Part shown: positions 54,233-59,696 of the stretch, one piece after another
Position numbering within the stretch: position 1 is the stretch's first letter
Layout of the letters: every line of letters starts with the position of its first letter
NCBI RefSeq assembly: GCF_002970975.1
Contig: NZ_KZ672982.1
Location: forward strand, 248,001 to 312,000
Direction: 5' to 3'
DNA: 64,000 bases
Origin: Microbacterium halophytorum
Lineage (GTDB): Bacteria; Actinomycetota; Actinomycetes; Actinomycetales; Microbacteriaceae
Position numbers and translations under genes: made by a program
The notes under the pieces: model-generated
Seen by the model: the letters and a program-made list of their open reading frames with translations, nothing else
What the model was told of the DNA's origin: nothing
The model's database searches: none

Positions 54233-57200
54233 TCAGCCGTCGAGACCCACCTTCGGGCGGGCCCAGGAACGGCCGGCGGTGTCCTTCAGGATGTCGTACT
54301 CGACGTCGACGTGGGGTTCGATGGCGCTGTACTTGTCGTTGGGCGCGCCGATGACGAGTTGGAATCCGAGGCCGCGCCACGCGCCGATCGCTCGCTTGGT
54401 GAAGTGCGCGTCTGCCTTGATGAGCGCCTCATCGAGGAACACGGGCGCGTACCGCGGCCGCTCGGAGTCGGCGTCGCCGAGCTGGTAACGCAGTGCGGCG
54501 CCGACGATGAACGCCACGAGCTCCTGCGACTCGCCGCCGGACTTCTCGCCGATGTGGTCGTACAGGGCGACGTGCTCGCGCGTCGCCGCGTCGATCTTCT
54601 CGGCGCTGATCCGCACGTGCCCTCGCACGTCGATCAGGTCGGCGAAGTCGGGCGAGGTGCGCCGGATGCGACCGATCAGTCGGGACATCCGGTCGTACAC
54701 CAGCTCGCGCTCGGCATCGTCCGTCGCCGATGAGATCGCCGCGCGCACCTCGCGCAGCTCGCGTCGGAACCGCCTGCGCACCTGCGAGGAGTTCTCGCGC
54801 GCCGTGATCTGCAGGCGGTGCTCGTCGTCGTAGAACGGCAGCTCCGCCATGATGCGGTTGACGGGTTCGATGCGCTCCCGGATCTCGCGCAGCGCGCGCC
54901 CGAGCGCGGAGTCGAGGCTCGTCAGGTCGTTACCAGAGAGACTGACGAGACTCGCCTTCCACTCGGCTTCGAGCTCGTGCAGGCCGCTCGTCTCGAGCTC
55001 GGCTAGAATGCGCTCGAAGTCGCCGAAGGACGCCTCCGGGTCGGCGCGCAGGTTCGGGTTCGGCCACGCGTCGAGAAAGCCCTCGAGCGTGCGCCGGAGC
55101 GCCTCGCGCTGCTCCCCCAGCGTCGCCGTTGCGGCGGCCTGGTCGCCGATGAGCCGCGCGCCCGCCGTCGACAGCGCCGCATCGAAGCGGTCGAGCTCGT
55201 CGGCGCGGCTCGGCCGTTCCGCGCCCTCCGGCGGCGCGAAGCGCTCGTCGAGGTAGGCGCGCTGCGCCTCGGTGAGCGTGCGCTCGGCGGCCTCGGCCGC
55301 GTCGATGCGCGCCTGCGCCTCGTCGACCTGGTCGGTGACCTCCGCCCAGCGCAGCGCGATGCGCTCCTGCTCGGCCCGTCCGCGGCCGGTGTCCTCCTGC
55401 AGCGACGCGACCTTCTGCTTGGCGCGCTGGATCTGCCGCTGGATGTCCTCGACCTTCGGGTTGTCGTCACGCACCTCGCCGATCACCGACGCCCAGCGCT
55501 CGCGCTCCACCGCCACGGCGTCCACGTCGATGTCGGGCCAGGCGATGTCGCGGATCTTGCCGTACGCCGCCAGCCGCGCGTCGAGGGCGTCGAGGTCGTT
55601 CGCCGCCGCCGATTCCGCCAGCTTCTGATCCGCGAGCTCGGCGCGGGCGCGCTCGATGCGGCGCATCAGGCCCGCGACCCGGCGCCGGTTCGAGAACCCG
55701 AGGACGCTCTGCTTGCCGTGGCCGCCGTGCGCGCCGCGGTTCCCGTTCGACATCTGCCCCGCGATCGTGAGGCCCATTGCCGTGTCGGCGAGCTCCTCCG
55801 GCGCGTCGACGCACGTGAAGCCGAACCGGCGCTCGAGCCGCTCCTGCAGCCAGCCGACGAACGGCGACTCCCGGTAGTCGAGGCGACCGGGAAGCGTCGC
55901 CGGGTCCAGGTCGCGGGCGGAGCCCAGGTCGGCCTGCGCTCCCTCGTACCGGATGCGCACGGGCGTCCGGACGCCGTTGATCGCGGCGCGGAACTCGCCG
56001 AGGCGGCGCTGGTCGATCAGCAGCGTCGTCGCAAAGCCTCCGAGCGCGAGGCCGATCGCCTCGTTCCACGGCTCGAACTCGGTGCGCACCTCGAGCAGCT
56101 CCCCGACGAACGGCAGGTCGTCCCGGCTGAGGCCGGCCGCCGCGGCCATCGCGTCGCGGGAGTCGTGCAGCGCCTGGGGGATGCTGTCGGAGCGATCGAG
56201 CGCCGCACGTGCCTCTGCCTCGAGCGACGCGATCTCGCGCTCCGTCGCGCGCGAGGCCGCCCTCGCCTCCGCATACGCCTCTCGTGCCGTTCGCTTGGCA
56301 TCGGGGTCGGCGATCGAGCGCTCGGCCTCGGCCTGGAGCTTCGCGAACGCCTTCGCGCCGCCTACTGCGCCACCGATCGGCTCCGCGAGCACGTCGAAGC
56401 GCTCCCGCTCCGCCCTGGCCCGCGCGAGCCTGCGTTCGACCTCGCGCAGCTCGCGCTCCGCCGTGTGCAACCGGTCGCCGCCGGCGCCGCGGAGCACCTC
56501 GGCGAGGCCGTCGCGCTCGGCCTCGGCGGCGTCCGCGAGCGCCTCCTGGGCGCGCACCACGTCGTCGGCATCGCGCTTGGCGCGCTGCAGCTCCCCCTCG
56601 ACGTCGCGCAGGAGGCCGAGCCGCTTCTCGTCGCGCCACAGCGCGGCGAGCGAGGCGTCGTCCGAGAACAGGCCGATCTCGTCGATCAGCCGGAGGCGGT
56701 CGGCCGCTTCCTCGATGCGCTCCCGCATCCCCCGGATGGGCGCGAGCTGGCGGATCTGCTTGCGCGCCGTCACCATCCGGCTGCGGGTCTGGTCGAGCTC
56801 GTCGAAGTGCTCCACGACGGCGTCGGCGGCGGCGAGGGTCTCCGGCTCCGAGAGCACCATGCGCTTGTAGAGGTCGTCGACCGTGGTGATCTGCTGGCCG
56901 GCCTGGATGCGCGCGAGCAGACTGATCGCCTTGCCTCCCGCGCCCGCCGCCCCGATCCCGAGCACCGACTGGATGCGCGCGGAGAACTCGCGCTCGGTCG
57001 AGAGCGTCTCGAGGCCGGTGCGGCGCACGGCGTGGTCCGCGAGGCGCGCGCCCGCCGCCTCTTCGAGCGACGCGAGGTCGAAGGCGCCGTCGATCGTCGC
57101 CCGCACCCGCACGGTGTCGTCGATCGTGCGGGCCGCCTGCGGGATGTACCAGGCGCGCACGGCCGTGAACTGCGCGCCGCCGTGGTCGGTCCACGTCATG

Positions 57201-58245: not shown

Positions 58246-59696
58246 GCGTCCTCCTGTGCTGAAGCGGTCACCGCGCCGAACGCGAACCGCCTGGTCGTGC
58301 CGTCCGGCCGCTCGGCCTCGACGACCGACACGGCGTCGCCGTCGACGAGCACGCCGCGGTGGGCGATCTCGAGCAGTCCGACGAGGTCGACGGGGCGTCG
58401 GGCCCCGGATGCCGCGAAGGCGTCCGCGAGGTCGAACTCCGCCCCGAGGCCCGCGACGAGCGCCTCGAGCTCGGCGTACCGGGGGCCTCCCCACGCGCGG
58501 TCGTCGGCATCCGGGAACTCCGCGGCGTCGGCGTCCGCGAGGGGGTCGGGCGCGCTCGGCGGACGCGGGTCGGCGAGCGTCTGCCGCAGGTGCGCAACGC
58601 CGGCCGACGGCAGGCTGCGCAGGGGCTCGACGCGGTCGCCCGCGCGGGAGTCGCGCATCCAGGCCTGCATACCGCTCATCACGTCGCGCAGGAGTTCGTC
58701 GACCTCGCGGTCGCGCGCAGGGTCGTGCGTTCGCACCTGGGCCGTGATGACGTGCGACGCGCGGCGCTGCGCCGTGAGGACCTCCGCCACGCCCTGCTCC
58801 ACGCGCTTGGCAATCACGTTCAGCTCGCCGCGCTGATCCGGGGCGAGCAGGCGCGCGAACGGCAGGGCGAGCAGGTCGTGGATCTGGTCAGTGAGCCGGT
58901 CGATGTGCTCGGGGTCGCCGATCAGCGCGAGCGCACCCGCGAACGCGCGGCCCTCCGGCGTGGCCTGCATGATGTGCTGGCCGCGGTGCAGGTACTCGCG
59001 CAGCACATCGCCCGTCGGCCGGATATCGCGGCGCAGGTCGGCGACGACGTCGCGCTGCATGGCCTGGATCGACTCGGCGACGCGGGCGAAATCGGCGGGC
59101 AGCTCGCGGGAGAGGTGGAGCACGTTCTCCGCCTCTTCGAGCAGCTGGTCATCGTCGACCGGTTCCGCCTCGCCGCGCATCAGGCGGTCGATCTCGGCGT
59201 CGATCGCGGCGCGCTCGGCCGTCAGCCGCGCGATCCGGGCGTTCGCGTCGGTCTCGGCGTCCTGCGCGAGCTGGTCGACCGAGTCGAGGAGCGTGCGCAC
59301 GCGCGAGCGCGAGACGCGGGCCCTGCCGCCGCCCGTGCGGCCCGCGATCTCGAGGGCCCCGACGGCCTGCGCCGAGAGGCGGTAGACCTCCTGGGCGTCT
59401 TCGATCTGCGGCACGAGCCAGCCGACGCGCACCCAGTAGCGGCAGATGTCGCGCCCGACCCCCGCCGGCACCCGGCGCTCGGGCTCGTCACAGCCGGCCG
59501 CACGCAGCTCGTCGGCGATCTCGCCGACCTCGACGTGCGCGTCCGACACCGCCACGGCGGGGCGCTCCGCTGTGAAGACGAGCGACAGCGCCGTGACGAC
59601 GAACGGGGCGTACCGGCCGTGCAGCAGGTCGAGCGTCGGGTTCCGGAAAGCCGCAGCTGCGCGCTGATAGGCGGTCTCGGAACGGGAGGAACTCAT
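58242..59696 (-). CDS. jetA: Wadjet/MksF-like kleisin subunit (JetA, DUF3375)
   Basis: 484 residues. Opens with FRNPTLDLLHGRYAPFVVTA, the DUF3375 N terminus. A central helical coiled-coil (about 150-230) follows, then a C-terminal winged helix. It is the kleisin that dimerises the complex. First gene of jetA-jetB-jetC. TAATCT at 59704-59709 (minus sense), 7 bases before the ATG, may be the -10 and would make the transcript nearly leaderless. Confidence 0.9.
   Translation of the reverse strand: MSSSRSETAYQRAAAAFRNPTLDLLHGRYAPFVVTALSLVFTAERPAVAVSDAHVEVGEIADELRAAGCDEPERRVPAGVGRDICRYWVRVGWLVPQIEDAQEVYRLSAQAVGALEIAGRTGGGRARVSRSRVRTLLDSVDQLAQDAETDANARIARLTAERAAIDAEIDRLMRGEAEPVDDDQLLEEAENVLHLSRELPADFARVAESIQAMQRDVVADLRRDIRPTGDVLREYLHRGQHIMQATPEGRAFAGALALIGDPEHIDRLTDQIHDLLALPFARLLAPDQRGELNVIAKRVEQGVAEVLTAQRRASHVITAQVRTHDPARDREVDELLRDVMSGMQAWMRDSRAGDRVEPLRSLPSAGVAHLRQTLADPRPPSAPDPLADADAAEFPDADDRAWGGPRYAELEALVAGLGAEFDLADAFAASGARRPVDLVGLLEIAHRGVLVDGDAVSVVEAERPDGTTRRFAFGAVTASAQEDA

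Follow-up and report, generated by a model that had tools for sequence, protein, structure and literature searches.

A JetABC motor without a detected JetD nuclease

The window analysed here is a 64-kb stretch of the Microbacterium halophytorum genome, and its reverse strand carries a compact three-gene operon, jetA-jetB-jetC, which comprises the Wadjet type I gene set of a DUF3375 kleisin (JetA), a DUF4194 KITE protein (JetB) and an ATPase resembling the structural maintenance of chromosomes (SMC) proteins (JetC). The JetABC motor that it specifies is complete and of the Wadjet type I kind, but its usual partner, the JetD nuclease, is undetected in the genome. An earlier, sequence-only reading of this DNA had described the three genes as complete, joined by ATGA overlaps and followed, after 138 bases, by an AAA ATPase gene; all of this stands, as both junctions are ATGA and the gap has the predicted size (Table 1). 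The identity of the three proteins is given concordantly by PADLOC and PDB sequence searches and, for JetB alone, by a fold search. The Walker A, signature and Walker B motifs of JetC, also pointed out earlier, are intact, and its match to the PADLOC JetC profile PDLC00517 spans profile positions 1-1114 of 1119. An alternative upstream ATG at 57616 would give a JetC of 1127 aa; the start at 57583 is preferred because of the ATGA overlap, the gene caller and an N-terminus, MTMLDTLF, which resembles the [VM]TM[LI]DTLF of relatives.

JetB, whose domain search was run on a 238-aa frame (the gene call being 221 aa), scores 142 bits as DUF4194 versus 32.1 bits as MksE (cut-off 27). JetC scores weakly against Pfam MukB (22.3 bits, cut-off 23) and against SMC_N (15.7 bits, cut-off 40), and no SMC_hinge is listed for it at E up to 0.1. 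The JetB structural model, of moderate confidence (mean predicted local distance difference test score, pLDDT, of 71) and used for disorder and the KITE fold only, matches JetB in 8dk1 and 8as8 as well as MukE, which shares the KITE fold.

The absence of a jetD-like frame, previously noted between 52.8 and 61.4 kb, extends to the whole window: neither tblastn with 14 JetDs (E up to 0.01) nor a hidden Markov model (HMM) built from the same 14 proteins and run over six frames gives a match. At the genome scale (assembly of 3.33 Mb in 20 contigs, 99.99% complete), PF09983 and PF11795 each give 0 matches, and the JetD of a related locus, L070 (L and G numbers denote our loci and genomes), used as a query gives 0 matches at E 1e-10; the genome-wide check that had been proposed thus reveals no JetD elsewhere that could be coupled to this locus. 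Among 14 genomes used as controls, a single one was positive in both Pfam searches, that of Corynebacterium glutamicum, a known carrier of MksG. Finally, a promoter and terminator scan of positions 54000-54350 found nothing.

Table 1. The jetABC operon and adjacent features, in window coordinates.
Feature	Position	Strand	Evidence
jetA, kleisin, DUF3375, 484 aa	58242..59696	-	PF11855 E 6e-110; PADLOC JetA PDLC00464 683 bits; PDB JetA 8dk1 E 3e-11
jetB, KITE, DUF4194, 221 aa	57580..58245	-	PF13835 E 2e-41; PADLOC JetB PDLC00473 364 bits; ATGA overlap with jetA
jetC, SMC-like ATPase, 1116 aa	54233..57583	-	PADLOC JetC PDLC00517 1615 bits; PDB JetC 8dk2 E 5e-49; ATGA overlap with jetB
JetB tail conserved in the clade (residues 16-35; window sequence FVAPMPMEEDPDECFAGDRG), probably disordered	58141..58200	-	motif F[IVL]xxxxME; pLDDT <50 at residues 15-35
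jetC-to-AAA gap, site of jetD in jetABCD relatives, without jetD remnant	54095..54232		tblastn and HMM without match
Palindrome TTTATGTTTCG(G/C)CGAAACATAAA, 23 bases, operator-like, just ahead of the AAA gene	54113..54135		pattern search
AAA_16/nSTAND1-type ATPase, 400 aa, neighbour outside the system	52892..54094	-	Pfam; family in 3/61 loci

The jetD-less state among relatives

In a genus sample of 198 genomes, whose matching records are mostly Microbacterium, a JetB match of any strength is found in 83 genomes; in 65, including the genome studied here, the match is close, with an E-value no higher than 5e-50. JetD_C is detected in 27 of the 198, three of these matches being fragments of 22-43 bits. 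Its presence anywhere in a genome is not associated with a close JetABC (11/65 versus 16/133, Fisher p 0.38), and by coordinates it lies inside the jetABC locus in only two of the 65 close genomes, G101 and G042. Besides the window, 64 genomes have a close locus; 59 of these loci were compared (G016, G055, G104, G108 and G171 were left out), together with the more distant one of G118; in all of this material jetABC appears as a compact operon amid differing neighbours.

The survey was widened to the contigs of 113 relatives, the best 80 of the 113 being kept; as these 80 were picked by similarity to the window, the overall share of jetD-less loci is perhaps biased. A family-level sample of 299 genomes, not chosen by JetD, gives a close JetB in 13 genomes outside the genus, with a linked jetD in 3 of the 13 and none in the other 10. 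With duplicates, recognised by identical JetC tails, taken out, the JetC clade of the window contains 124 loci, and 5 with less than 1 kb past jetC were excluded. At the 119 loci where at least 1 kb could be read, jetD is absent from 113 and present in 6. The jetD-less loci are found in Microbacterium, Leucobacter, Corynebacterium, Gulosibacter, Ruania and Tessaracoccus, among others. Absence of jetD is the norm for this clade, and a recent, strain-specific deletion from a locus that otherwise always carries jetD, an alternative raised by the sequence-only reading, is rejected.

Two further observations concern distribution. The possibility of a plasmid-borne operon was rejected, as a search of PLSDB at E 1e-30 gives no more than 3 matches to JetC, the best at 40% identity. 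A second, distant jetABC group of the genus, L121-L126, also lacks jetD; it is sister to the jetD-containing L120 and L128 on our first JetC tree and is perhaps an independent jetD-less group.

Loss of jetD and spread of the operon

On a second JetC tree of 132 rows, from which three clade loci with a short jetC were omitted, each of the six jetD-containing loci is a single tip and no two are sisters, although three of them fall within one 9-row subclade. Their JetDs nevertheless form one clade (support 100/100). They are 37-59% identical, versus 61-75% for the corresponding JetCs (L162 JetD being entered as its longer frame and L080 jetC being partial), and are thus too divergent for a recent regain from one donor. 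The outgroup Wadjet loci, except L121-L126, are all jetABCD.

Gene order in sister species points in the same direction. The locus of M. helvum (L162) and that of M. jejuense (L071) have the same genes on either side, in collinear order; the former carries, between jetC and the next gene, a jetD that is split over two frames (real or a sequencing error), whereas the latter has a 78-base gap at the same position, which makes it shorter by about 1 kb. In L118, the gene directly after jetC is truA-like, as named by eye; in L080, whose jetC contains an assembly gap of Ns, jetD and more lie in between. The sisters of the jetD-containing L070, with unrelated flanks, are uninformative on loss, as are those of L235.

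Because the jetD-containing tips are scattered, their JetDs form one clade, the nearest outgroups are mostly jetABCD and a collinear sister lacks the gene, jetD was probably ancestral in this clade and lost repeatedly, the nuclease-free operon then having spread between genera. Some results weigh against simple loss. Although JetD and JetC identities are correlated over all 55 pairs (Spearman 0.74), this value rests largely on the contrast between clade and outgroup, because within the clade the correlation is weak (0.47, p 0.08, 15 pairs). The in-clade JetD tree is moreover unresolved, with no branch-by-branch match to JetC, and regain or transfer of jetD may have contributed. If regain is disallowed, the clade requires 21 losses on the second tree, compared with 17 on the first, numbers that hinge on weakly supported forks and on the exclusion of jetD transfer; if it is allowed, the second tree as a whole can be explained with a minimum of 7 label changes. 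The number of losses is thus uncertain, and "repeated" marks the extent of our claim. The idea of a system that lost its nuclease, one of those put forward from the sequence, is supported by these data, in the sense that the loss looks old and recurrent rather than a defect of this strain.

The operon has also crossed taxonomic boundaries. Rows from Corynebacterium, Ruania and Gulosibacter nest with Leucobacter and the trio formed by the window and its two nearest relatives, in a 19-row jetD-less set (Shimodaira-Hasegawa-like approximate likelihood ratio test, SH-aLRT, 100). A tree constrained to hold the Microbacteriaceae rows as one clade is rejected by the approximately unbiased test (p-AU 1.2e-6, log-likelihood lower by 142; 25 rows versus 10), the group having been named after an earlier tree had been seen. 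As judged from these trees, the jetD-less operon is transferable between taxa, families and orders.

Conservation of the motor and of a JetB tail

The JetABC motor is under strong purifying selection. Over 35 jetD-less pairs, the median ratios of nonsynonymous to synonymous substitution rates (dN/dS) are 0.086 for jetA, 0.142 for jetB and 0.088 for jetC; the pairs come from a greedy choice among the 264 close pairs that 112 loci offer, with no locus entering more than one pair, and may share tree branches. The jetB value of the pair L170/L172, kept in the set, is inflated, probably via a fused frame in L170: in this metagenome-assembled genome, no stop separates jetB from jetC, so that both lie in a single open frame (L170:3139-7665), by fusion or assembly error. 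In the aligned JetCs of the clade (106 rows, of which two are jetD-containing), Walker A reads GGSGSGKST in 103 rows and GGSGTGKST in 2, with 1 gap, and both the KSGGES signature and the Walker B APVF[LM]DEAL are present in 106/106.

A short tail, N-terminal to the KITE domain of JetB, is also conserved in the clade. It follows the pattern F[IVL]xxxxME-x-D...F[AP]GD-x-G and is preceded by a highly variable stretch. Its core, F[IVL]xxxxME, is found in 114 of 115 jetD-less JetBs, the sole miss being L253, whose frame is without the tail, and in 6/6 jetD-containing JetBs of the clade, versus 0/28 outgroup JetBs; the pattern was drawn from these same sequences, and three further jetD-less loci have no JetB frame. 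The low pLDDT of this region in the window protein (Table 1) indicates that the tail is probably disordered. In Pseudomonas aeruginosa PA14, the JetB N-terminus is reported to touch JetD through an IFDR motif (PMC10586767), and the clade tail may be the same site. Its retention without JetD points to a structural role in JetABC or to another partner.

Possible functions of the nuclease-free motor

We propose, with moderate confidence, that this JetABC derives from Wadjet I and extrudes DNA loops without a nuclease, in the manner of MksBEF, being probably left after ancestral JetD loss. In known systems, JetABC dimers are reported to extrude the plasmid, JetD being activated on completed extrusion (PMC12647877). 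Here, JetC would load on DNA as dimers, with JetA as the kleisin and JetB as the KITE subunits that hold them, and would use ATP to extrude loops, as reported for Wadjet I; without JetD, extrusion would end without a cut, leaving compacted or bridged DNA. The M. halophytorum genome itself encodes an Smc hinge and ScpA, the latter found in 193 of the 198 genus genomes. The nuclease-free MksBEF of P. aeruginosa is described as organising the chromosome and aiding its segregation (PMC7485682, PMC10586767), and MksBEF distribution as sporadic, typically together with SMC-ScpAB or MukBEF (PMC7485682). The locus shares these traits, being a three-gene kleisin-KITE-SMC operon without MksG, sporadic (65/198) and present alongside Smc hinge and ScpA. 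Because Smc hinge and ScpA are present and P. aeruginosa MksBEF has such a role, the most likely use would be, by analogy, auxiliary chromosome organisation or segregation beside Smc-ScpAB. Its target may be the chromosome or, alternatively, plasmids handled without cutting.

Several points count against a chromosomal role. The patchiness of close JetB in the genus and the movement of the operon between families and orders fit an accessory or defence function better than a housekeeping one. The motor is Wadjet-like by sequence, in its matches to both JetABC models and JetABC structures of the PDB, with nothing specific to chromosome condensins, and, to our knowledge, no member of the clade has a described phenotype. 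The related MksBEFG of C. glutamicum, finally, is reported to be without a chromosomal role (PMC7083940).

A nuclease-free anti-plasmid system is possible, though rather unlikely. JetABC would sense small circular DNA by extruding it fully and would restrain it, without cutting, via compaction or by blocking its expression or segregation, along the lines proposed for Smc5/6 and episomal DNA. The patchy, horizontally transferred distribution fits this idea, as does conservation of the motor after JetD loss; known Wadjets are held to sense circles through JetABC, and Smc5/6 has been proposed to compact viral DNA circles (both in PMC10586767). In C. glutamicum, however, loss of MksG is reported to have the same effect on plasmids as loss of the motor (PMC10123090), and no recurrent defence family is found just downstream of 55 jetD-less loci, the 9 PADLOC families encountered having 1 or 2 members each and the commonest Pfam family, MFS_1, occurring in 4/56 first downstream genes. 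A broader version of this idea, which we offer only tentatively, is that an actinobacterial Wadjet lineage repeatedly shed its nuclease and spreads between genera as an SMC immune motor that restrains circles uncut, with an as yet unnamed partner bound via the conserved, disordered JetB tail, as a counterpart of Smc5/6 episome silencing.

It is more doubtful that JetABC works with another effector, encoded elsewhere in the genome and docked via the JetB tail, so that cleavage or another form of attack would persist. The near-invariance of a probably disordered tail after such variable residues, its absence from the outgroup and the IFDR precedent of PA14 speak for this explanation; yet the tail is also present in all jetD-containing JetBs of the clade and may thus serve JetA or JetC, and a JetD_C elsewhere in the genome is not tied to JetABC. 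The largest neighbour families, moreover, count 11 genes over the 61 loci (the window included) and reflect local synteny. First downstream genes were compared for the 55 jetD-less Microbacterium loci and the window, 56 of 57 being usable (that of L063 is a piece of jetC). A conserved alternative nuclease downstream of jetC was likewise rejected, with no recurrent family among the matches listed for these 55 loci and the window (for Pfam, the 25 commonest of 59 families).

A decaying relic, that is, a defence system minus its nuclease, is very unlikely. Signs of decay do exist, namely the split jetD of L162, a JetB match in two pieces in G171, and L109 and L213, whose jetC is broken without assembly gaps and which are candidate decaying jetD-less operons; but purifying selection (dN/dS of about 0.09 for jetA and jetC) largely refutes this explanation for the clade, in which the ATPase motifs are essentially invariant and the operon is spread across genera. 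That the neighbouring AAA ATPase is a replacement effector, as had been suggested, is most unlikely: the gene lies on the same strand as jetC, 138 bases after it, and L061 and L062, the nearest relatives (of genomes G026 and G142), have it too, but its family is not found at the other 58 loci, it has its own palindrome, it is separated from jetC by a 200-aa open reading frame in L062, and its Pfam matches are to P-loop NTPase families and weak others, with no nuclease family.

Neighbouring genes

The comparison of neighbours that had been called for to follow the AAA gene therefore finds it only in the window and these two relatives. As ScpA, at 87% identity, likewise singles out G026 and G142 as the closest genomes, the AAA-bearing locus is probably common to the three by descent. 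The operator-like palindrome suggests that the AAA gene is a separate transcription unit; in L061 and L062, a different inverted repeat, CGATTTATA...TATAAATCG, stands at a similar place before the gene, as if the operator had been exchanged.

Other features of the surroundings can be mentioned. SbcD and SbcC genes (Mre11/Rad50-like, named by eye) come after jetC, within 14 bases of it, at L092:10670-14823, the only jetD-less locus with them. In the window, four tRNA genes, Gly-Val-Cys-Gly, both Gly being gcc, are found at 51218-51636 on the reverse strand, about 1.3 kb from the AAA gene, and a Met/Cys-rich open reading frame of 130 aa at 50310-50702 on the forward strand would encode a putative four-helix copper-binding protein.

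Significance and comparison with known systems

The question addressed here is whether a Wadjet motor is of use without its nuclease. Because most related operons are also without an adjacent jetD, the motor likely has a job independent of cutting. This clade would provide a second, larger natural experiment on such a motor, with sister species that differ in jetD at the same chromosomal place, and opens either a transition from defence to condensin or a control of plasmids without cutting to direct tests in soil bacteria. Caution is called for as well, since matches to jetA, jetB and jetC alone are no proof of a plasmid-cutting Wadjet. The original MksBEF survey may mention nuclease-free actinobacterial operons. 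In the literature covered, which included few subscription papers, no report of a JetD-less JetABC in these genera was found, and the nearest precedent on JetD loss was only the 2023 review PMC10586767, in which P. aeruginosa MksBEF is considered a likely case of JetD loss and loop extrusion on the chromosome is described as not yet documented for a JetABCD system.

Among known systems, the operon is closest to Wadjet type I JetABCD, as described in P. aeruginosa PA14 and E. coli GF4-3, as MksBEFG in C. glutamicum and as EptABCD in M. smegmatis. It shares with them the order jetA-jetB-jetC, the domains and full-length homology, and the nearest solved structures to the three window proteins are Wadjet I JetA, JetB and JetC. 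It differs in that JetD (PF11795 and PF09983) is detected neither in the operon nor in the genome, and in the JetB tail pattern, which is specific to the clade.

P. aeruginosa MksBEF is likewise a three-gene kleisin-KITE-SMC operon without a nuclease that coexists with Smc-ScpAB. The window JetB is, however, far better described as DUF4194 than as MksE, as judged by Pfam scores (142 versus 32 bits); this hints that the nuclease was lost on two occasions, in different Wadjet lineages. With enterobacterial MukBEF, the resemblance is that of the KITE fold, the window JetB model matching MukE; MukBEF is reported to have replaced Smc-ScpAB (PMC10586767), whereas the genome studied here has both Smc hinge and ScpA. 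Finally, eukaryotic Smc5/6 acting on episomal DNA offers a possible analogy, as an SMC motor that deals with circular DNA without cutting it.

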